Positions 2,044 to 27,098 of a DNA stretch of 27,098 nucleotides are shown here, piece by piece. A program made the translations under genes and the position numbers. Where the stretch lies: the IMG/VR virus record IMGVR_UViG_3300050821_002455, positions 1-27,098 of that record; one strand, given 5' to 3'. The notes under the pieces were generated by a model. The model saw only the letters and a list, made by a program, of their open reading frames with translations. It was not told the origin of the DNA and searched no databases. This DNA comes from a virus. The first letter of the stretch is position 1. The number at the start of each line of letters is the position of its first letter.

Positions 2044-3807
2044 TTACGGCTGCCCTTGGACGGGTGTCATGGTTTTACCGTCAACCGTGTGGCCTACAAG
2101 TTGCCCGTTGACGTACACGGGCTGCGGAGAGGGCTGGGCAGCACCATATTGCTTAACTAGATACCTGTTGTTCCCGACCAAAGCGTTCTTTCTGGCCGCG
2201 ATGTCATTTTGCATGATGCCGATCGCACCGGCAATCTGACCTTTGGAATAACTAGCCTTCAGGATGTCCAACGCTTGCTGTCGGCCAGTATCTGATCCGA
2301 TGCCGCCGCCCATTACCTTCGAATATTCATCCGCAAGTCCGAGCATGGCTGTATGGAAGTTGGTAGCCTCCTTGGAGCCGAATTCCGTGGCGCTAGCATT
2401 GAATACCTTATTGAGCGTGGAGGAATTTAACTGCGGCAAGGCTGTTGCTGCACCTTTGGCGATATCAATAGCCCCGCCAGGTTCGGTCATACCCTGGATC
2501 ATCTTCAGCGTGTTCTGATTTGTTGAGGTTGTCGCATACTTGTAATCAGATTGGGCTTGGGCTAGATCGAAGGGCTTGCCGTACTTTTCCAAAGAATACT
2601 GGCTAGCTTGCTGGATTTTGGCGTTGTAATCTGTGGTTCTCTTAGAAAGCTGAGTCGGGTCCATATTGCCTTCAACCAGCGCAACAGGGATTGAGGCAGG
2701 ATTCCAACTTCCGTCCTCGTTTTTGGCCATGCCGCCTTCGAGGTTCTTGGCTTGGGCAAGTCTTAATTTCTGCTCCGCGTAGGCACTCGCGGCTTCTGCA
2801 ATGTCCTTCTGTCCAGCCTGCTTCTGTTCGGTGATCTTGGCCTGACTTTCCTGTGCAGAATTGTAGGCTCCCAGTGAAGTCCCATTGAACTGCTGATATT
2901 TGTCCCAGGTCATTGTGGGATCGGCGGCATGGGATATCAGCGTCAATTGCCCCGGCTTCTTAGGGTCTGGAGCGACTTCGTAGATCGTGTGCCCGTCACC
3001 GATAGGCTGTTCTCCTGCCCCTTTGGGCACTTCTACGGCGTCAAATCCGCCTTTTGGACTCTGGATCAGCCTGATATTGTTCTTTGCCAGATCAACCGCA
3101 TATTGCTTGGAAAGTTGCGGGCCAACTGTTTCCAGATGCTTGTTGATCTCGTCATTAGAGTCGAAATGTTGGAGCAGCTTGGCTCCGGGAGCGTTTAGAA
3201 GCTCCTGCATTGAATTGGCTAAGGCGGTTTGGTGCTCATCCAAAGCCATGCCTTGAGCCTTTAGGTCCAAAGCGTTTCGAGCCTGCTCCTGTGACATTTT
3301 GGCAAGATTGGCCTGAACCATCTGCTTCTGCTGTGCCGCCTCATTCGTTGCCCGCACGTTCTGTGACTGGGCAAGAAGGTTCTTCTGCTGAATCTGCTGT
3401 TGCTCTTGTCCAGCCTGTAATCCTAATGCTGCCGCCTGCCCAACCGCGCCCGGACCGTGAGCACCAGCCCCGGCCGCTGCCCCTACTAATCCCCTACCCA
3501 CAGCTCCCACCACTCGCTGCGCACCACTTACCGGTACGCGCTCAATGGCTCCCGTGGTTGGATTAACTCTTTGCTCTGTGCTGGGTGCTATCGCTTCGCC
3601 TACCGCGTGCAGCAGTCTTGCTAGGAAGCTGCCGTGGTCGGAATCTTCGTGCGGAGGAGCTTGTGGCTGCTGTGGCGGGGCTTGAGGAATTGCCGGAGGC
3701 GGAGGCGTAGCTTGGCCTGCCAAGGCATCCATTGGGCTGGGGAGAGCCGTAGAGTCAGGCGGAGGCGGTGTTTGCGGTGTCGGTTCTGCTACTGCTGTAT
3801 CCGGCAT
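2044..3807 (-). CDS. Large virion protein with Pro-rich N-terminus and coiled coil
   Basis: A 587-aa protein. Residues 1-60 are extremely Pro-rich (PPPP tracts). Residues about 65-135 are Gly/Ala-rich with amphipathic and hydrophobic segments (RVVGAVGRGLVGAAAGAGA). Residues about 135-215 are Gln/Ala-rich, heptad-like coiled coil. The rest is a mixed alpha/beta region without a domain I recognise. The ATG at 3807 lies 53 nt inside the end of the upstream 149-aa gene. A later ATG (codon 26) is possible, but the Pro-rich tract runs through both sides of it and only a weak GAAG precedes either. Together with its neighbours (149, 225 and 440 aa) it forms a block downstream of the nozzle gene where podoviruses usually encode internal/ejection proteins. 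I infer such a role; no enzyme motif is seen. Confidence 0.6.
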   Translation of the reverse strand: MPDTAVAEPTPQTPPPPDSTALPSPMDALAGQATPPPPAIPQAPPQQPQAPPHEDSDHGSFLARLLHAVGEAIAPSTEQRVNPTTGAIERVPVSGAQRVVGAVGRGLVGAAAGAGAHGPGAVGQAAALGLQAGQEQQQIQQKNLLAQSQNVRATNEAAQQKQMVQANLAKMSQEQARNALDLKAQGMALDEHQTALANSMQELLNAPGAKLLQHFDSNDEINKHLETVGPQLSKQYAVDLAKNNIRLIQSPKGGFDAVEVPKGAGEQPIGDGHTIYEVAPDPKKPGQLTLISHAADPTMTWDKYQQFNGTSLGAYNSAQESQAKITEQKQAGQKDIAEAASAYAEQKLRLAQAKNLEGGMAKNEDGSWNPASIPVALVEGNMDPTQLSKRTTDYNAKIQQASQYSLEKYGKPFDLAQAQSDYKYATTSTNQNTLKMIQGMTEPGGAIDIAKGAATALPQLNSSTLNKVFNASATEFGSKEATNFHTAMLGLADEYSKVMGGGIGSDTGRQQALDILKASYSKGQIAGAIGIMQNDIAARKNALVGNNRYLVKQYGAAQPSPQPVYVNGQLVGHTVDGKTMTPVQGQP

Positions 3808-4206: not shown

Positions 4207-4884
4207 TTATTCGCCCACAATCTTCCCAAGACTTCCGCCGCCGAGAGCGCCACCAGCAGCGCCTAATGCACCAGCGGCAAGCTGCATCCAGCTTTGATTG
4301 GCTTGGGTTACTTCGTTGGCCGTAGTCGCGGCAGAACTTCCTGCTCCTGTCGCCGCCCCTGCTTGCCCTTCGGGGTTATACTGTGCAGCCACGCCAGCGA
4401 GTTCGTTCGCGGCAAATTGGTAATTGGAAAGCCCCTGCGCCCAGTTTTGCTGCTCGATTCCCAGTTGTTCGCCAGACTGCTGCTGGGCTGCGGATTCTGC
4501 TAACTGTGCGCGTTGTTCACTGGCAGCCCCAGAAGGTACAAAGGAATTGCCGCCGCCTTGTGCGCCTTGCTCCAAGGCGAGGGCTTTTTGTGCAGCGGAA
4601 TAATTCTGTCCGACTCCAGTTGTGGCCTCAGATTGTAGGGACTGCAACTCGGCAGGACTATAGCCCTGCTGGTCAGGTCCGGCCGCCAAAATGGGATTGA
4701 AAGATTTGGTCAACTCTTGGAGAATTTGCTGGTTCTCAGAATACTGCTGGGCGTAATTTGCCGTGAGTTGGTTATAGAACTGTATTTGACTGTTCTGGAG
4801 TCCCACTTGGGCGCTCGATGCCCCACAGCCGCCCGAAACACCACGCCCTTCGCGCAAATAGCGTTCTATTGTGTCTGACCACAT
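4207..4884 (-). CDS. Gln/Ala-rich internal virion protein
   Basis: A 225-aa protein, ATG start 4 nt after the stop of the 87-aa gene. It is rich in Gln, Ala, Ser and Gly. It has a long helical, heptad-prone segment (about 30-65; NYAQQYSENQQILQELT), a Gly/Gln linker (about 105-125), a second helical stretch, and an Ala/Gly hydrophobic C-terminus (LAAGALGAAGGALGG). This composition and size resemble small internal virion/ejection proteins of podoviruses (T7 gp14-like position after the tail tube proteins), but that is an analogy from place and composition only. The N-terminus carries GGCGASS around residue 20, which is not a proper lipobox because no hydrophobic signal precedes it. Confidence 0.5.
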   Translation of the reverse strand: MWSDTIERYLREGRGVSGGCGASSAQVGLQNSQIQFYNQLTANYAQQYSENQQILQELTKSFNPILAAGPDQQGYSPAELQSLQSEATTGVGQNYSAAQKALALEQGAQGGGNSFVPSGAASEQRAQLAESAAQQQSGEQLGIEQQNWAQGLSNYQFAANELAGVAAQYNPEGQAGAATGAGSSAATTANEVTQANQSWMQLAAGALGAAGGALGGGSLGKIVGE

Positions 4885-8520: not shown

Positions 8521-9237
8521 TTACTGTCCCCTCCCTGCCGCGCCTGCCTGCAACATCTGCCCTGAGTAAACTCCGGTCTGAACTACTGCATCCCATTGCT
8601 GCATGAAAATGGCTTTATCTTGCTCGCTGAGACCTTCGGCAACCGCCAGCAGAGACCCAATCCACTTGCTGTTCATCGTTGAAAATCTTGTATCATCGGC
8701 AAACAATTCCATCAGCGCCGTGAAGCCATAGTTGTAAACCTGCCCAAACATATCCGGGATTGACCAGACACTATTCAGGGAAGTTAGCAGCGGCGCACGT
8801 TTCTGATAGACCACGCCGACTGTGTAGCTCTGATCCGGCACGCCCGGCATAAAACGGAAAGTGATATTGCCATTGTTGTCATCGAGGAATACACCGATGC
8901 CGTGTGCCTGCCCCGAACCAGCATCCGGCGTGAGGTCTAGTTTGATATTGGCAATTTCATTTACCGTGCCACCGGAAGTTGTCGTATAGGCACGCTCGAT
9001 GAAGCCGAAACTGGGCAGATTCTGCGGCGTATCCACGCTGGGCTGGGAGAATTTTGCCGTAGCGCGATTCCATGCCCACTTAAATGGCGGGGCCAATATC
9101 GTTTGTTGAACAATATTGGCCGCCGTTAATGCGGGTTCGAGCCCGCTCGCTCCACCGACTGCCAAAGGCCTACGGCCAAGGTAGAAGGTCGCGAAGTCGA
9201 TGGAATTCTGAACTGTGCGGGTGTTACTGATGCCCAT
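8521..9237 (-). CDS. Adaptor-like structural protein (short paralog)
   Basis: A 238-aa protein, ATG 3 nt after the stop of the 356-aa gene, with no strong SD, so probably translationally coupled. The N-terminal region reads GGASGLEPALTAANIVQQTI then FKWAWN. The same pattern occurs in the neighbouring 356-aa protein (GGSSMEPALTVGNIVMAEL and YNWRWN). The C-terminal halves also align (QKRAPLLTSL..IPDMFGQVYNYG against GQYKPTRFTSL..IPDDFSQYFMQG). The two are therefore paralogs. Location between capsid genes and the nozzle gene fits a head-tail adaptor/tail-tube-A role in a short-tailed phage, which is inferred. Nothing catalytic is visible. Confidence 0.6.
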   Translation of the reverse strand: MGISNTRTVQNSIDFATFYLGRRPLAVGGASGLEPALTAANIVQQTILAPPFKWAWNRATAKFSQPSVDTPQNLPSFGFIERAYTTTSGGTVNEIANIKLDLTPDAGSGQAHGIGVFLDDNNGNITFRFMPGVPDQSYTVGVVYQKRAPLLTSLNSVWSIPDMFGQVYNYGFTALMELFADDTRFSTMNSKWIGSLLAVAEGLSEQDKAIFMQQWDAVVQTGVYSGQMLQAGAAGRGQ

Positions 9238-9240
9238 AGG

Positions 9241-10311
9241 CTAACCGGGTGCAAACGGCCACGCCGCTGAAGGCCAAGGCATGTCATATCCGCCCATGAT
9301 GTCCGTGCCGGGGTATGCTTGATAAAATTCCGGCTCTCTGTCAGCTTGTCCTTCGGCGTCTGAAATCGCCTTCTGCCACAGAAGATATTCCGGCTGGAAT
9401 TTAGCCCTGATCTTCTCTTCCGGCGATCTCTGGTAGCAGTACGTTCTGAAGCCTTGCATGAAATACTGCGAGAAATCATCAGGAATCGGATTGATAAACT
9501 GCGCAAGCGAAGTGAATCTGGTTGGCTTATATTGTCCCACCAACATTACCAACCAGATCACCCCACCTGAAGCCTCGATAGGCGCAAGCCTGATTCCTTG
9601 CCCGTAAGGGTCTGCAACAGTCCATTGCACGGTGCCGTCTGTCGTTACAGTGCCCACTGCGGCGTTTGCGGCGGGCCAGGAAGGGGCCGAATTGCCACAA
9701 GTGCCATATTGGGTCAAAACCTGAATATTGCTGTTAGGATCGATGATTTGCGTGGTAGGGTTCTGTGGCGTTACTGTTACTCCAATCGGGTTGCCATAGA
9801 CCTGTCCCGGCCCCGGATTCAACTGCCCGGTCAGATTTGGATTCGGGGCCGTGGCACCAGTTCCCCAGGTTCCGTACTGCAAATTAGCATTATTCAGCCA
9901 TGCCGCCTGATATGGTCTCCCGTAAGAATTTGACGTGGGCAGCATCGCCTTCCCAACTTCTAGGGGAAACTTGCGCTTGGGGATGCAGGAGGAATTGATG
10001 TCTATGATTACGCCGGATTCGAGCCAACCCAGGTTGGTAAGATTTGGAGGGTTCTGCGTCCAGACTCCATTAGCTAAAGCTGCACCACCCGAAGCATAGT
10101 CGTTTTGCCAGCCGTTAGTCGCGAAGGGTGTGATATTGAATGAGTTCCAGCGCCAGTTGTAACGGCGGGAGCAAAGCTCGGCCATCACGATGTTGCCCAC
10201 GGTGAGTGCTGGCTCCATGCTGGACCCGCCCGATTGAAGCACGGGCTTAATGTCGCCAAACCTCAAAGCATCATTGATGCAGGCTTGCAGTGAAACGCTG
10301 GAGCTAGGCAT
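9241..10311 (-). CDS. Adaptor-like structural protein (long paralog with module A insert)
   Basis: A 356-aa protein, paralogous to the 238-aa protein downstream (see that entry for matched segments). The extra length comes mainly from residues about 125-240. This part holds a Pro/Asn/Gly-rich stretch and one copy of the short repeat found four times in the nozzle protein. The C-terminus (residues about 260-340) is helical and resembles the paralog, ending with a Trp/Pro-rich tail. A GGAGG lies 13 nt upstream of the ATG, rather far, and the ATG is only 30 nt from the start of the divergent plus-strand 62-aa gene. Proposed role: head-tail adaptor or tail-tube component; the tandem pair may form mixed rings or successive rings. 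Confidence 0.6.
   Translation of the reverse strand: MPSSSVSLQACINDALRFGDIKPVLQSGGSSMEPALTVGNIVMAELCSRRYNWRWNSFNITPFATNGWQNDYASGGAALANGVWTQNPPNLTNLGWLESGVIIDINSSCIPKRKFPLEVGKAMLPTSNSYGRPYQAAWLNNANLQYGTWGTGATAPNPNLTGQLNPGPGQVYGNPIGVTVTPQNPTTQIIDPNSNIQVLTQYGTCGNSAPSWPAANAAVGTVTTDGTVQWTVADPYGQGIRLAPIEASGGVIWLVMLVGQYKPTRFTSLAQFINPIPDDFSQYFMQGFRTYCYQRSPEEKIRAKFQPEYLLWQKAISDAEGQADREPEFYQAYPGTDIMGGYDMPWPSAAWPFAPG
9607..9750 (-). repeat. Module A copy 5, inside the long adaptor paralog
   Basis: Residues about 188-235 of the 356-aa protein: IIDPNSNIQVLTQYG, NSAPSWPA, then VGTVTTDGTVQWTV. It matches module A copy 2 of the nozzle protein nearly position by position. The short paralog lacks it. Confidence 0.6.
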
Positions 10312-10341
10312 GTATGCTAGGATGCCTCCGAGGATATTGCC

Positions 10342-10530
10342 ATGAAATGGGTATTGCTAATCCTGCTCTGCTGCGTCACTCTTTCAGCATCTGACAGTCC
10401 GCAAATAATCGTTTACGTTGACCGCATTAATCCCAAGCAGAAAGAACACGTCATCTCCGGCAAAGAAGTCTTGGGCTTTAGTTGCACTTCGTTGACGACT
10501 GGCGATGAATGTTTCGTCTTGAGTCGCTAG
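10342..10530 (+). CDS. Small secreted protein on the opposite strand (moron candidate)
   Basis: A 62-aa protein and the only persuasive plus-strand gene. An SD (GAGG, 8 nt before ATG) is well placed. Residues 1-17 (MKWVLLILLCCVTLSAS) form a signal peptide: a Lys, a hydrophobic core, then Ala-Ser. The mature part is about 45 residues, with two Cys (in SCTSL and DECF) that could form a disulphide. The gene exactly fills the gap between two minus-strand genes: it starts 30 nt from the divergent 356-aa gene and its TAG overlaps the TAG of the convergent 228-aa gene within CTAG. An envelope-located product expressed separately from the virion genes fits lysogenic conversion or superinfection exclusion, but no family is recognised. 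No convincing sigma-70 promoter is seen upstream. Confidence 0.65.
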   Translation: MKWVLLILLCCVTLSASDSPQIIVYVDRINPKQKEHVISGKEVLGFSCTSLTTGDECFVLSR

Positions 10531-11213
10531 GCTGCGGGTTGGTAGCCAGCTAAGACCAATTCGTTGGCAGGAACCTTCTTAAGAAACGCCTCAAACTTTC
10601 CAGCACTTTCCCGAAACTGATTTTGCAGCTTCGGAATGAGAAACATTGCCCCACCCGGAAGTTCACCCGCCTGACCCTCGAATGTTTTACAGGTCCATTC
10701 GAGCATCTCTCTGAAATCCTTCTTCTGCTGGAAATAGAGAGGCAGAGGCAACTTGCCTTCCGCGACATACTTCCTGCCATCGAATACCACTGAACCATCT
10801 GCTAATTCAGCCCACCAGTCGGGATCATGCCATTCCTTCTGGCAGCGAAAACACAGGCCGTACACTTCGCCAGTAGGAAGCTGTTGCTTGCTCACGGCGT
10901 AGCCGTAAATATCGCCGTCGCCCTGAAAGAAGCCGGGGCGATCTTTGCCGCCAGTCTTATGCCGGCACATTTTCTTGATGCGCTTGTCTTCGGCATGTTG
11001 AGCCGCGATCTGAGCAAGGTTGTTTTCGATTTGCTTCTGGCGCTGTTGTTTCTTCTCGGTGAATTCGCGGTTTTGCTCATTGACCACTTCTAATTCGCGC
11101 TCCGCCTTCATCAAGAGAATCACCTGACTCCGCCGCCCCATATCTTCAACCGTCAGTGAATCGAGGGGCGCATCGAGTAATTCTTGAATCGTCATGCTTT
11201 TCTTTTCTGGCAT
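10527..11213 (-). CDS. Coiled-coil protein with zinc-ribbon-like Cys/His cluster
   Basis: A 228-aa protein. The start is placed at the ATG (11211-11213) because AGGAG sits just before it; a TTG 11 codons upstream would also be open but lies beyond the SD. Residues about 25-80 are a charged helical, coiled-coil-like segment (ELEVVNEQNREFTEKKQQRQ). A CRH (residues 83-85) and a CFRC (121-124) about 38 residues apart could bind one zinc. The C-terminal part is helical and Trp/Phe-rich. It follows the major capsid gene, so it may be a minor head or assembly factor, but similar Cys/His proteins also serve in DNA packaging or regulation. The function is unknown. Its stop overlaps that of the convergent plus-strand gene. 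Confidence 0.55.
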   Translation of the reverse strand: MPEKKSMTIQELLDAPLDSLTVEDMGRRSQVILLMKAERELEVVNEQNREFTEKKQQRQKQIENNLAQIAAQHAEDKRIKKMCRHKTGGKDRPGFFQGDGDIYGYAVSKQQLPTGEVYGLCFRCQKEWHDPDWWAELADGSVVFDGRKYVAEGKLPLPLYFQQKKDFREMLEWTCKTFEGQAGELPGGAMFLIPKLQNQFRESAGKFEAFLKKVPANELVLAGYQPAA

Positions 11214-11235
11214 ATTTCTCCTAGAGGAATGGAAA

Positions 11236-11258
11236 GGAGAGACCAATCCGATCTCTCC
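11236..11258 (-). promoter_or_regulatory. Hairpin 2 downstream of the capsid gene
   Basis: GGAGAGA and TCTCTCC form a perfect 7-bp stem with a 9-nt loop. On the minus-strand RNA it is followed by UUUCC and then, about 20 nt on, by the SD of the 228-aa gene. It shares bases 11251-11258 with hairpin 1, so only one can form at a time. It could act as an attenuator, mRNA stabiliser or weak terminator; the U tract is too short for a sure call. Confidence 0.4.
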
Positions 11259-11298
11259 TGTATCTCATATCTCCCAACCTGTTATGAGATCAGGAGAT
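11251..11298 (-). promoter_or_regulatory. Hairpin 1 at the capsid gene stop codon
   Basis: CCTGTATCTCATA (11257-11269) pairs with TATGAGATCAGG (11283-11294) with one bulged base; outer bases (ATCTC with GAGAT) can extend the stem. The capsid stop codon lies inside the right arm. A strong stem just after the most highly expressed phage gene is a common place for a partial terminator or 3' RNA-protecting element. Confidence 0.45.
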
Positions 11299-12315
11299 GT
11301 TGCTCGGCGCATCGCTATACCTGAGGCGCATTGTCGTGTCTGGGCCAAGCGACGCAGCGTACTTGAGGTTGTAGCTGGTCCACCCGCCAATTACGCCAAC
11401 CGGATCAGCCGCCGATGTTGCCGGAGACTTCACCAATTCAGTGGAGATGTTCCGCCACTCACCTTCGCCGATCTTCGCGCCCTCTTTGGCACCCAGAGAG
11501 ATGCCGAAGGTTGCGTTCTGACCGAATACATAGGTGCGGTAGGCGGTAACACCCGTGTGGCCCAAGTAGTTCGTGGTCTGCGTGACCATCTGGCACTGGT
11601 AAGCCCTGATTCCTGAGATATCCAGAATTGGAGCTTCTTCGCCAGGTAGGTCATACAGCATGTCGCGGTCCTGAGCGCCGCGCACTGCCGCAAACTTCGC
11701 AATGTCCGTGATGCCGCCCGTCGAGGTGTCGTTTAGTGCATCACCGCAAACGAAAGGATGCACGAGCATTCCAAAGCGATTGGCTGCTTGGTCGAAAGGT
11801 TTTACGCCACGGCCTTGCAGGGACTGAACCATCGCCACAAAAGTGGTTTTGGTCATCGTTACGTTGTAAGCCAACGATAACGCGTTGACTGAGGAATCAA
11901 TCGTCGGCGCAGTGTCTACCACGTTGCGATGTACGGTGTTCAGTGACAGCGCAGCACGATAAGCAATTTCCTCGCGGAGATTGCCGAGTGCATCGTCGAT
12001 TGCAGTTTGCAGCGCATAGTCAGACAGCGAAATATAGTCGCCATACTGCCCAATGGTCGTGGTATTCGTCAGCACAGTGGGAGTAATTCCAGAACCCACA
12101 GTACCTTCTGAGATTTGGACGGTGTTAGCAGCGAAGGGCTGATACATGAATAATTCCAGCTTATTGCCGGAGTTCATGGGCAGCGGTCGCCGCTCAGAGA
12201 GTCGGAGAAATAGCGTCCACACCTTCAGGTTCTGCACGAAATTGCGATCGTAGAAAGTGACCGTAGCTTGCGGCAGAGCGTTAGAAGTGGTTGACGCCGG
12301 ATTATATCCGGACAT
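11290..12315 (-). CDS. Major capsid protein, N4-gp56 family
   Basis: A 341-aa HK97-fold-type capsid protein recognisable as the N4-gp56 family from its N-terminal half. TFYDRNFVQNLK is followed by LRLSERRPLPMNSGNKLELF (about 38-57), then ISEGTVGSGITPT and IGQYGDYISLSDYA (about 88-101). These match the family plan 'R.Lk....R.g....LPkn.GkTi.frr....l....EG..P....l.....a...qYGdy...sD'. The protein lies just after the scaffold-like gene and before other head/tail genes, as expected. An AGG about 10 nt before the ATG serves as SD. Length is a little below many family members. No N-terminal cleaved delta domain is obvious; a separate scaffold protein takes that role. Confidence 0.88.
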   Translation of the reverse strand: MSGYNPASTTSNALPQATVTFYDRNFVQNLKVWTLFLRLSERRPLPMNSGNKLELFMYQPFAANTVQISEGTVGSGITPTVLTNTTTIGQYGDYISLSDYALQTAIDDALGNLREEIAYRAALSLNTVHRNVVDTAPTIDSSVNALSLAYNVTMTKTTFVAMVQSLQGRGVKPFDQAANRFGMLVHPFVCGDALNDTSTGGITDIAKFAAVRGAQDRDMLYDLPGEEAPILDISGIRAYQCQMVTQTTNYLGHTGVTAYRTYVFGQNATFGISLGAKEGAKIGEGEWRNISTELVKSPATSAADPVGVIGGWTSYNLKYAASLGPDTTMRLRYSDAPSNIS

Positions 12316-20693: not shown

Positions 20694-21725
20694 TTAATTC
20701 AGCGTCCAAGTTCCGACCTGTACATACGCTTCCCAAAGAGTTGAACTGATTCCTACCACACATGCAGCATCTCCGGCTGCTCCGCCAGAGGTTAGAGTTC
20801 CCGTGCTTGAACCCTTTGTGCCGTTTTTGATGATGAAGTGGGTTCCGGGAGTAGCAACGGCAATGGTCAGTATGCCCGTATTGGCGGCGGAACCATTATA
20901 GGAATTTTTGACGCAATACTGCTTCCCTGCGGCAGGTACGGGCAAAGTATAGGTCACCCCCGTCCCGGCTGTGGCCTCTTGGTTGAAGGTGTAGCCGGAA
21001 TTGTAAGTGCTGCCAGGAGTCCCCGTGGTGCCTGTGGTTATCGTGACGGGGGCAGTTCCATCCACAATGCCTGTGGCTAGAAGGGAGGTTGCTGTAGCCG
21101 CGCCAAGGGCAGGAGTTGTGAAGCTAGGCGAGGAAAGAGGGGCACATCCAGAACAAGCAGCAAGAATGTTCGCTGAACTGGCTATTGAGGGAACGCCCGT
21201 TATGGTCGTATTGTACAAAATGCCCGTGGCTAAACCTGAGAGCAAGGTGTTGTTGATTCCTACGACTGTTGCCGCATTGCTCCCACTGGTTGTAACGTCC
21301 TGACTCAGCTCTGTGGCCGCTCCTGTTTGCCGAACTAAGCCAGTACCGCTAAGGGTCGGGCAGTTGGTCACCTGCGAACACGTATAGTCTCCAGAAGTAG
21401 CAACCACTGCCCCGGTGCGCGTGAATACGCTACTGACTGCCGCCGCGCTGCCACCACTGGCTGAGGGCGTGAATGTTCCATTGCGGAAGTCCAAAATCAT
21501 CAAACTCCCCGGATTGCAGGTTGAAACTGGATTGCAGTCTCCGCCTGTATAACTTGCGGGAATCCACACCTGCCCATAAGGTCCGGCTTTTTGGATCGCT
21601 TGCAAGATCGAGGGCTGCGGAGTGGCGAATTGCAAAGGAGGTTGACCTTGATTACCGACTACTACGATTGGAGCGTTCTGGCCGAAACATACAGCGGTTA
21701 AGAAGAGAAACGCTAGCCATTTCAT
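20694..21725 (-). CDS. Tail fibre-like protein with N-terminal signal peptide
   Basis: A 343-aa protein. Residues 1-16 (MKWLAFLFLTAVCFGQ) look like a cleavable secretion signal. SILQAIQKAGPYGQVWIPAS (about 39-58) is the entry segment of beta-helix proteins ('aiqkA...g.V.iPa.Y'). SSVFTRTGAVVATSGDYT (about 98-115) is close to the SVFGRTGAV.A.sGDY motif widely seen in phage fibres. A Thr/Ser/Gly-rich shaft follows, then a C-terminal beta domain (about 240-343; YTLPVPAAGKQYCVKNSY). ATG abuts the upstream TAG; SD weak. A signal peptide is unexpected for a cytoplasmically assembled virion protein. It might be surface-displayed or captured from the host, or the hydrophobic N-terminus might have another role. 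Confidence 0.6.
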   Translation of the reverse strand: MKWLAFLFLTAVCFGQNAPIVVVGNQGQPPLQFATPQPSILQAIQKAGPYGQVWIPASYTGGDCNPVSTCNPGSLMILDFRNGTFTPSASGGSAAAVSSVFTRTGAVVATSGDYTCSQVTNCPTLSGTGLVRQTGAATELSQDVTTSGSNAATVVGINNTLLSGLATGILYNTTITGVPSIASSANILAACSGCAPLSSPSFTTPALGAATATSLLATGIVDGTAPVTITTGTTGTPGSTYNSGYTFNQEATAGTGVTYTLPVPAAGKQYCVKNSYNGSAANTGILTIAVATPGTHFIIKNGTKGSSTGTLTSGGAAGDAACVVGISSTLWEAYVQVGTWTLN

Positions 21726-24622: not shown

Positions 24623-25360
24623 TCAAATCGTTTTCTTCAGGACCGCACAAAAATATCCATTATGCCATTCGCCCTGGCTGTACCAGAGGTCTGAATCACC
24701 AAGTTCGACATTTACGAACACGTTGTGAAGCATGGCCAACTTCATTTTTCCGATGGCATTGAAAGTCCCCTGCTTTACGGCCTTCTGGTTCCAGTCATCC
24801 ACAATCAAAACGAACTCATCTTCCATGGCAGGCAGGGCCATGGTAATGCCGTCGAACTGGTCTTGCTCGGCATGAGGGCCGTCGTAAAAATACACGTTGA
24901 ATTTCCCTAAGCCTGCGAAATCTACCTTGCGAAAGTCTGCCTTGATGAGGCTCACGTCAGCTTCCGGGGTCCTGAACTTAATCAGGTTCTCCATGCACTC
25001 CTTTTCGGCGTTGATCGGGTACATCAGATACCTGCCAAAATCCTCGGAGCGGTCGTCTATGGAAACAGCTCTCACTTTGTTTCCGTTGATGGCAGAGCAC
25101 AGGCTAGAACCAGTCCATGTGCCCACTTCCAGATAACGAGCATCGGACATCGAGCCAATCAGTTCGTTGATGAAGATGCGATAGCGACCGCCAGAAAGCG
25201 CAGAAAACAGGCCGAATATGCGTGGGTCTATTTTGTACTCAGGACTAGGCACGCAGGCTTTACGCCATGCTTCCTTGACCAACGGGATCAGACTGCATTC
25301 TATTTCTACGCAGCCTTCGGGCTTGTTGTAGAACCCCTGCTGGACGCTGACTTCGCTCAT
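24623..25360 (-). CDS. Class I SAM-dependent methyltransferase
   Basis: A 245-aa enzyme. The ATG (25358-25360) overlaps the upstream stop as ATGA; a longer frame upstream has unnatural, Pro/Arg-rich sequence and would overlap the neighbour by 120 nt, so it is rejected. Motif I is YLEVGTWTGSSL (about 76-87). An acidic residue closing strand 2 (VSIDD, about 99-103) would bind the SAM ribose. VYFYDGPHAEQDQFDG (about 156-171) and LIVDDWN (about 185-191) belong to the Methyltransf_24-type family. Family members often methylate sugars or glycoconjugates. Position inside the glycan cassette suggests O-methylation of a sugar added by its neighbours. Substrate is inferred. Confidence 0.75.
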   Translation of the reverse strand: MSEVSVQQGFYNKPEGCVEIECSLIPLVKEAWRKACVPSPEYKIDPRIFGLFSALSGGRYRIFINELIGSMSDARYLEVGTWTGSSLCSAINGNKVRAVSIDDRSEDFGRYLMYPINAEKECMENLIKFRTPEADVSLIKADFRKVDFAGLGKFNVYFYDGPHAEQDQFDGITMALPAMEDEFVLIVDDWNQKAVKQGTFNAIGKMKLAMLHNVFVNVELGDSDLWYSQGEWHNGYFCAVLKKTI

Positions 25361-26256
25361 ACCATCACCGTGTGGTGAATCGCCACATGGTCGAGGATGT
25401 AGGTTGCCAATGCCTTCGTGGTTAGGTCTTTCTTCAGTTTGGCGTAAACATCCTGCATTAGGTCTTCCCAAATCCACCGTATCTGCCCGCTCTTGAACCA
25501 GTCACCATTCTTGTAGTCCAAGAGGTGCTTCGCCATTAGAAGTTCTTCTTTGGGCAGTTTGTGCATGATAAGCGGCGGGCAGTATTCCAGGTTCTCAAAA
25601 TACGGCATACAGTAGCAGGCCATGATCTCGTAATGCCGCAAGCAATCCCACCCAGCCTTCCTGCTCGTTCGGGCAAAAGCACTGGTCTGGTAATCGTGGT
25701 AGTAGTGCTTTTCGTCGGTGTAGATGTAGGTTCTCGCATCCCACGGATTCAGTGGCGCGAGAACTTTGTCCTTCATCTTTCCCGGCTGCAACTTTTCTTC
25801 TGGAATGGCGAATTGAATGGGGAGGGCATTGTCTCTGGGGTTGTGCAGTTCCCGCTTGAAGTACCAGTAGCCCCGATTAAGGAATTCCTTGAGTAACAGA
25901 GGATTGTCTTCGCCGTCGAGGAATACGATCTTGTCCTCCGGGTAGGAGTCCCGCACGATCTCCCGCACCTGGTCGAGATAGATATTTGATCGCTGCACAC
26001 TGCCGAAGACCACGAAATCGAAGAATTTTCTGCGAACTTTCATTTCAAGGTCAGAGCGGTCCACGGCGATATCATCCAACAATCCAAATAGCGTGAAGCC
26101 ATGGCCGTATAGGCTTTGAAGATCGTAGCCTTTGTACATATGCGACATTTTGGGGGCATCCACCACGTCAGCGCCGAAGTGCTGACGAAGACCATGCAGC
26201 GCCATATCTGCGAGATAGTCCGCTCCGTTGGCCTTGGTCAGATACAGAACTTTCAT
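25357..26256 (-). CDS. GT-B/CgeB-like glycosyltransferase
   Basis: A 299-aa protein starting MKVLYLTKANGADYLADMAL, a typical Rossmann entry of GT-B enzymes. FFDFVVFGSVQRSNIYLDQV and KIVFLDGEDNP follow. RHYEIMACYCMPYFENLEYC (about 207-226) is close to the C-terminal 'R.YEilA.G..P.f.n...' donor-sugar segment of CgeB-like and spore-coat-type glycosyltransferases. The gene overlaps both neighbours by ATGA and is therefore translationally coupled in the cassette. Donor and acceptor unknown; the second half of the donor site looks complete, so activity is plausible. Confidence 0.65.
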   Translation of the reverse strand: MKVLYLTKANGADYLADMALHGLRQHFGADVVDAPKMSHMYKGYDLQSLYGHGFTLFGLLDDIAVDRSDLEMKVRRKFFDFVVFGSVQRSNIYLDQVREIVRDSYPEDKIVFLDGEDNPLLLKEFLNRGYWYFKRELHNPRDNALPIQFAIPEEKLQPGKMKDKVLAPLNPWDARTYIYTDEKHYYHDYQTSAFARTSRKAGWDCLRHYEIMACYCMPYFENLEYCPPLIMHKLPKEELLMAKHLLDYKNGDWFKSGQIRWIWEDLMQDVYAKLKKDLTTKALATYILDHVAIHHTVMV

Positions 26257-27098
26257 TTCGTCATTACGCCCAAGCCGGGAGTGATCGAGAATTCCTCGTG
26301 CTTCAGGCCGTGCTCTGCGGCGAACTTAAAATACTCCTCGCCAATCGCTAGACTCGGGTAGTCGGACCCTGGCGAAGCCTCAAGGGTAAATCTCGGGTCT
26401 GGGGCAATGTCGTGGGACAGAATCAAGCCTCCAGGTTTTACCAGCGGGAACACCCTCTCTAGATCGGCCTTGTACCCTTCGCGTGTGTGCAAACCATCTA
26501 TCAGAACAATGTCGAGTCCTGAAGGCAGATGGAGTTTTGGATTCTGACTGTCGGACTTAATGAAGGCCCACTGTGGGTGTCCCGCGAACAGATGAGAGCA
26601 ATCCTGAATATCCACCGACATTACCAGACCGCCATTCCTTTGAACGCCAGACAGGAACGCGGAGGTAGATGCCCCATCGCGCACGCCAATCTCCAGCACG
26701 TTGCCGCGTGCATTCTTCTCCATCCACGGTAGAAAGTCTTTCATGTCGCCAAACAACATTCCTGCCTTATATCTGTTCTGCACTTTTTCCTGCGGCGTGA
26801 ATTCCGTTATGGCCGCATTCACCGTTGCCACGAAATCTCTTTGCTGAATCGACCGCAAGGCATTTTGCCCGAAGATTTCCAGCCCATCACTGCCGTCGAT
26901 CACTCGTTTGCAGGTTGCTACCAAATCGTCATAACGGCAGGCGATGAAGTGCAAATCCCGGTATTCTGAATCGTCGTCTGACAGCTCGCTCACCACACAT
27001 TTGCTGTTGGCAAGGTAATAGCTCATGCGGACGATCTCAAATAGCGTCCTGCCGTCATGGTGAACATTCAGGCATACTTTGGCGCGGGAGATCAGATT
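26253..27098 (-). CDS. Glycosyltransferase-methyltransferase fusion, N-terminus cut by window edge
   Basis: A MET at 27026 would give 257 aa, but the frame stays open to the right edge (at least 281 aa), and the extra residues (KVCLNVHHDGRTLFEIVR) read as the donor-binding end of a GT-B glycosyltransferase: 'AKI.LN.h.....fE.vR..y.lan...vvSE'. I therefore call one longer gene. Visible residues 1 to about 95 are the GT tail. From about residue 110 a class I methyltransferase follows: GNVLEIGVRDGAST (about 132-145), VMSVDIQD, VLIDGLHTREGYKADLE and PGGLILSHD. The methyltransferase is of the Methyltransf_24 type, as in the neighbour. A bifunctional enzyme would add a sugar and methylate it. The real start lies beyond the window. 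Confidence 0.75.
   Translation of the reverse strand, partial: NLISRAKVCLNVHHDGRTLFEIVRMSYYLANSKCVVSELSDDDSEYRDLHFIACRYDDLVATCKRVIDGSDGLEIFGQNALRSIQQRDFVATVNAAITEFTPQEKVQNRYKAGMLFGDMKDFLPWMEKNARGNVLEIGVRDGASTSAFLSGVQRNGGLVMSVDIQDCSHLFAGHPQWAFIKSDSQNPKLHLPSGLDIVLIDGLHTREGYKADLERVFPLVKPGGLILSHDIAPDPRFTLEASPGSDYPSLAIGEEYFKFAAEHGLKHEEFSITPGLGVMTK

Follow-up and report, generated by a model that had tools for sequence, protein, structure and literature searches.

The gene junction and its small reversed ORF

The window, i.e. the whole stretch of 27,098 bases analysed here, is a virus record from IMG/VR and constitutes a fragment of a phage related to Tunturi_3. The head proteins of the window and of Tunturiibacter phage Tunturi_3 share 45% identity, and the close sisters of the window are IMG/VR contigs with head-protein identities of 84-94%. 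Tunturi_3 is described as a podovirus of an Acidobacteriota host and infection by the Tunturi viruses as lytic, despite the putative integrase/recombinase genes annotated in Tunturi 3-5 (PMC11924767). No integrase was recognised among the scanned proteins of the window. Related loci were collected with two profiles: the head-protein profile found relatives in 328 candidate stretches, of which the best 80 were kept, and the profile of the gp12-like protein found relatives in 26 loci.

Between two minus-strand genes lies a lone plus-strand ORF of 62 codons (Table 1), which opens with an ATG at 10342 and closes with a TAG at 10528-10530. Its TAG shares bases with the stop codon of the convergent gene at 10527-11246, the two forming the tetranucleotide CTAG (10527-10530), and 30 nt (10312-10341) lie between its start codon and the ATG of the divergent gene (10311). 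Position, stop overlap and spacing are exactly as the first-pass annotation had given them. The same annotation had credited the ORF with a clean Shine-Dalgarno sequence. A GAGGA is present 7 nt before the ATG, but it belongs to the near-palindrome CCTCCGAGG (10325-10333), whose minus strand reads GGAGG 13 nt before the divergent start, such that GAGGA is half of a motif that serves the opposite gene as well. Because the near-palindrome is common to both genes, the Shine-Dalgarno sequence of the ORF is weaker evidence than it appears, and the stop overlap together with this shared motif was judged too weak as sole proof of a gene.

Table 1. Positions and strands of the features at the junction, and of the integrated bacterial element described below
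Feature	Coordinates	Strand	Basis
Flanking gene, homologue of gp12 of Tunturi_3 (annotation: 'structural protein')	9241..10311	-	homology
Shine-Dalgarno-like GAGGA	10330..10334	+	sequence; 7 nt before ATG
62-aa mini-protein gene, putatively exported	10342..10530	+	ORF, family profile
Predicted signal peptide, residues 1-16	10342..10389	+	sequence; putative cleavage after LSA
Predicted mature part, 46 aa, GKEVLGFSC block and second Cys (DECFVLSR)	10390..10527	+	sequence
Flanking gene, fast-evolving, position conserved in phage group	10527..11246	-	comparison of sisters
Major head protein, query for finding relatives	11290..12315	-	homology
Integrated element (L235 and L232)	G312:C10 49886-67868		tRNA-Ala repeats, integrase

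The predicted protein starts with M-K-W, after which comes a very hydrophobic stretch whose mean hydropathy reaches 3.68 over its best 9 residues, and L-S-A at residues 14-16 forms an x-x-A cleavage-like site as read by eye. The N-terminus may be cleaved after LSA or, alternatively, be retained as an uncleaved anchor. Cysteines 48 and 57 fall 9 positions apart within the predicted mature part and could form a disulfide; the second one is followed by a phenylalanine (C57-F58) and lies five residues from the end. A signal peptide and a pair of cysteines, as proposed beforehand, are thus predicted from the sequence. The lipobox of Llp-type proteins has the motif [LVI][ASTVI][GAS]C. No lipobox is present in the ORF, the residues being I-L-L before C10 and L-L-C before C11. 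Prediction by AlphaFold from the single sequence, with no alignment, did not reach a confident fold (mean pLDDT 47.6).

The surrounding genes provided several further observations. Over roughly 54 residues at their N-termini, the products of the adjacent minus-strand genes at 9241-10311 and 8521-9237 resemble each other with 33% identity (E about 5e-5), and the same holds for their relatives. A 343-aa operon protein (20694-21725, minus strand) has a strong signal-like N-terminus of its own, MKWLAFLFLTAVCFGQ, the start of which resembles that of the ORF. Large operon-strand genes of three related loci (L119, L121 and L135) likewise begin with signal-like peptides, which is odd for virion proteins. 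Two proteins with Methyltransf_24 (PF13578) domains are encoded close together where the fragment ends upstream (24623-27098, minus strand).

How easily such an ORF arises by chance was estimated from 20,000 first-order Markov sequences with the length (219 nt) and the dinucleotide make-up of the gap. A closed ORF of at least 60 aa occurred in 5% of them, and in 0.025% it was accompanied by a comparable signal. A strict scan of 104 related phage loci (1.07 Mb; in the total of 1,072,458 bases, parts of some contigs occur more than once) yielded 0 gap-located ORFs of 35-140 aa with signal and Shine-Dalgarno sequence. A looser scan of these loci and the window gave 7 distinct hits, among which the ORF had the top signal score; the others were five operon-strand proteins of 175-1197 aa and one opposite-strand ORF of 136 aa with a TTG start in L090. 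The codon evidence is mixed: compared with gene segments of equal length from the window, the synonymous codon usage of the ORF is typical (67th percentile) and its whole-codon score is low (5th percentile).

The junction in sister phages

Four close sisters (L002, L004, L005 and L006) possess both neighbouring genes, and 0/4 carry the ORF. While the flanking genes are separated by 215 nt in the window, the gap amounts to 2 nt in L002 and 8 nt in L004. Counted from the conserved start, it measures about 19 nt in L006, where the longest ORF call leads to an overlap, and about 500 nt in L005 (427 nt to the longest ORF start). At this position (10052-10553) L005 holds a different insert of about 500 nt with an unrelated, hydrophilic ORF of 88 codons on the operon strand. 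Since the ORF is missing from all four sisters and one of them carries an unrelated insert, the site is tolerant of insertions: the junction accepts them and looks like an insertion hot spot. According to the first-pass annotation, relatives with non-coding or frame-shifted DNA at this place, or with a minus-strand gene conserved there, would speak against the ORF; what the sisters have instead is a nearly empty junction or, in one case, the unrelated insert. A joint exchange of the flanking gene at 10527-11246 and the ORF was rejected, as this gene shows about 35-48% identity whichever two of the five sisters are compared.

In the phage loci, tblastn gave no relative of the ORF (the best match, E 0.087, was dismissed after inspection), and the family profile described below found none apart from the ORF of the window itself. 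The 80 locus rows that contain both the head protein and the gp12-like gene (the same contigs being repeated among them) also lack it. Scans of IMG/VR with the family profiles returned 0 viral copies, and no copy of the gene was present in the other viral contigs and the phage and plasmid records searched, such that it is a singleton among these viruses.

A bacterial family of small, probably secreted proteins

Searched as a single sequence the ORF is an orphan. Single-protein scans of IMG/VR and of GTDB contigs gave no match, tblastn in phages and plasmids gave chance matches only (E 0.5 or worse), no similarity to PADLOC, Pfam, PHROGs or NCBIfam models was detected, and a comparison with the PDB returned nothing convincing. 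A phylum-wide search of 396 genomes with the full ORF produced six weak matches, which were dismissed as chance after alignment.

This apparent orphan of 62 aa could be assigned to a family once its predicted mature part was used as query against genomes of Terriglobales, the likely host order, to which the Terracidiphilus gabretensis genome (G003) behind locus L016 belongs. Among 397 genomes of the order, 33 matched at E 0.5 or better. Twenty of these 33 weak matches were read, along with two from the phylum-wide search, and two were accepted (L138 and L139), both being predicted small secreted proteins with an ORF-like end; their C-termini are GEKIVGFSCAAVGDGVHCFIASE and GSQVVGFSCISIPGQSRCFVATVE. 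Profiles added five further members (L171, L172, L201, L218 and L227), giving seven bacterial relatives, a number that undercounts the family since lower-scoring matches were only partly read. The seventh member, obtained with a profile without the window sequence, reads IVTVTQITPKDKMTLTPDERYLGFSCVQARCYIVTMQ where the window has IIVYVDRINPKQKEHVISGKEVLGFSCTSLTTGDECFVLSR.

The members of this GFSC/CF family have in common a signal-like N-terminus, an [I/V]xV strand, a block of the G-F-S-C type and a second cysteine before F or Y near the C-terminus. A hydrophobic N-terminus with an end of the V/G-x-A type points to an export signal cleaved by signal peptidase I. By eye, such an end (V/G-x-A) is present in 7/7 bacterial members; the corresponding residues of the window ORF are L-S-A. 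In the mature part the cysteines of the members are spaced by 5 to 14 positions, and by 9 in the ORF. The Terriglobales proteins comprise 73-82 aa whereas the phage copy comprises 62 aa, mainly due to its shorter signal region. Identity of the ORF to its relatives is 23-33%.

We ranked the 22,969 six-frame ORFs of the window and the phage loci with profile HMMs. A profile of the first six bacterial members, containing no window sequence, placed the window ORF first with E 3.5e-6 (next 1.5), and a profile of all seven members placed it first with E 4.9e-7 (next 3.3), a support that is partly circular because the family was reached by iterating from the window ORF. When the two members detected by the ORF as sole query were left out, E was 2.6e-5 (next 0.85). 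With the seventh member alone as profile the ORF was again first (E 0.13, next 2.5), and it always came first with smaller sub-profiles, where the E values were weak (0.43, 0.35, 0.025 and 0.0034). For comparison, leave-one-out tests among six bacterial members gave E values of 1.6e-7 to 4.4e-12. The true ORF scored 27.8 bits, while the best of 5,000 shuffles of its C-terminal part scored 16.5. Homology of the window ORF to the bacterial family is very likely, as judged from these sequence profiles.

The distribution of the family is rare and patchy. In the order, the host-only profile at E 0.01 detected members in at least 7 of 397 genomes, and each of the seven was accepted on inspection; at least 1 of 19 genomes in the genus of G312 and at least 1 of 12 in that of G672 have a member. 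These counts are lower bounds, as up to 14 candidates were scored per genome. Near six of the seven bacterial relatives no phage genes were seen among the neighbouring ORFs inspected (the first residues of some of them; 2.5 kb for L227), and two of these six lie near IS1595-type transposases. Because six of seven relatives are found in such contexts, the basic role of the family is probably a host one.

A further context is provided by the family member at G312:C10:64801-65034, which lies on an integrated element of 17,983 bases (about 18 kb) bounded by perfect 45-bp repeats that correspond to a portion of a tRNA-Ala gene. The element encodes a tyrosine integrase (phrog_1, E 7e-65), an O-like replication initiator, a resolvase, a DUF4365 protein and phage-type genes, and one of its proteins is 36% identical to that encoded at 4207-4884 of the window (E 7e-28). 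Like the window ORF with respect to its operon, the G312 copy is antisense to an adjacent large gene. For this gene of 1243 aa no IMG/VR relative was found with six 8-residue seeds, and the 518-aa gene before it has no similarity to window 2044-3807. The phage nature of the element therefore rests on the integrase, the att-like repeats, the O-like replication protein and the one shared protein. We read it as a reduced prophage or another phage-derived or satellite-like element.

The family has no name in the libraries searched. With an alignment of the window ORF and six bacterial relatives (A6, seven rows), no Pfam or PHROGs model matched any row. NCBIfam gave three unrelated weak matches (E 0.01-0.03) and the PDB one unconvincing chain (E 0.83), all of which were set aside. 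The family is likewise not described in the titles and abstract openings of the papers retrieved on small prophage envelope proteins and on small secreted proteins of Acidobacteriota.

Possible role and known phage proteins

We think that the ORF is a real, inserted gene, of the moron type and belonging to the GFSC/CF family as far as its sequence tells. The moron assignment made in the first-pass annotation is partly supported: the gene appears as an extra one inserted against the operon and missing from the junctions of the sisters, and its family is otherwise bacterial or carried by an integrated element. Simple scans of 9900-11000 for sigma-70 promoters and for terminators, possibly ill-suited to this host, revealed no promoter-like or terminator-like site. 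The product is probably exported. The most likely place of action of the mature protein is beyond the cytoplasm of the cell that makes it, because the predicted signal looks cleavable and two cysteines are explained most simply as a disulfide in an oxidising compartment.

The best explanation, to which we assign a probability of roughly 0.6, is that of a captured host cargo gene for an exported, disulfide-containing mini-protein that acts on the host envelope. A podovirus of Acidobacteriota would have captured the ORF from among the small secreted proteins encoded by its hosts and placed it in reversed orientation into the junction between two virion genes. Infected or lysogenic cells would produce the protein, export it via the Sec route and cleave it. 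The resulting mini-protein of about 46 residues would fold, held by a Cys48-Cys57 disulfide, and act on an envelope target in the periplasm or at the surface of the host. The benefit might be, e.g., the blocking of a second phage or a change of the envelope.

Alternatively, the gene may be a genuine captured host gene that is functionally neutral, i.e. a passenger of a recent illegitimate recombination that is not expressed and will be lost. A transient passenger is conceivable because the gene is a singleton among the viruses searched, missing from the four close sisters and the 80 locus rows, and the empty promoter scan as well as the rarity of the bacterial family also fit a passenger. Against this, the frame, the signal, the region of the start, the two cysteines and the C-terminal block have all been preserved at an identity of only about 30% to the closest relatives found, a pattern implying that the gene was maintained in coding form somewhere for a long time. 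A second copy is also located on a phage-like element. We consider a neutral passenger rather unlikely.

A sub-case of the captured cargo gene, with which its confidence overlaps, is a protein for superinfection exclusion or receptor masking analogous to the small exclusion factors that enteric phages place in the periplasm or outer membrane. The ORF product would suit such a role in being small, probably exported, phage-borne and antisense to virion genes, with a second copy on an integrated element; yet it resembles no PADLOC, Pfam, PHROGs or NCBIfam model, it lacks a lipobox, and the probable host role of relatives with no phage genes seen among the neighbours scanned speaks against it. This specific function appears doubtful. 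Finally, an ORF that arose by chance in DNA that is non-coding or has decayed, with the Shine-Dalgarno sequence as by-product of that of the opposite gene, would agree with the shared near-palindrome, the low whole-codon score and the 5% of random sequences with a closed ORF, but is very improbable given the drop to 0.025% upon adding the signal, the first rank in the family profile and the lower scores of all 5,000 shuffles.

Should the reading as captured, envelope-acting cargo apply more widely, phages and prophages of Acidobacteriota might carry GFSC/CF members as conversion genes that act on the envelope and lie antisense to virion genes, which would allow them to be made while the lytic operon is silent; we put this generalisation forward tentatively. 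Acidobacteriota are abundant soil bacteria, the phages of which have hardly been studied. The isolates Tunturi 1-5 with their laboratory hosts are recent (PMC11924767). The ORF offers a concrete candidate for how such phages alter the envelope of their hosts: a probably exported small protein common to host genomes, an integrated element and one virus.

Phage morons, or lysogenic conversion genes, are exemplified by lom and bor of lambda. The ORF resembles them as a single extra gene between virion genes that is placed on the opposite strand, is missing from sisters and has a probably exported product; it differs in that no promoter or terminator was recognised in simple scans and in that its family has no name. 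Cor of phi80-like phages and Llp of T5 are exclusion proteins. They share with the ORF product that they are very small exported proteins coded by phages, whereas the latter has no lipobox, has bacterial relatives and is without a library match. DicB is reported to be a small protein of a cryptic prophage that protects from phage infection and alters the envelope route of infection (PMC6832061). Both are small proteins encoded by a phage or prophage, and the ORF product is set apart by its signal-like N-terminus and its pair of cysteines.
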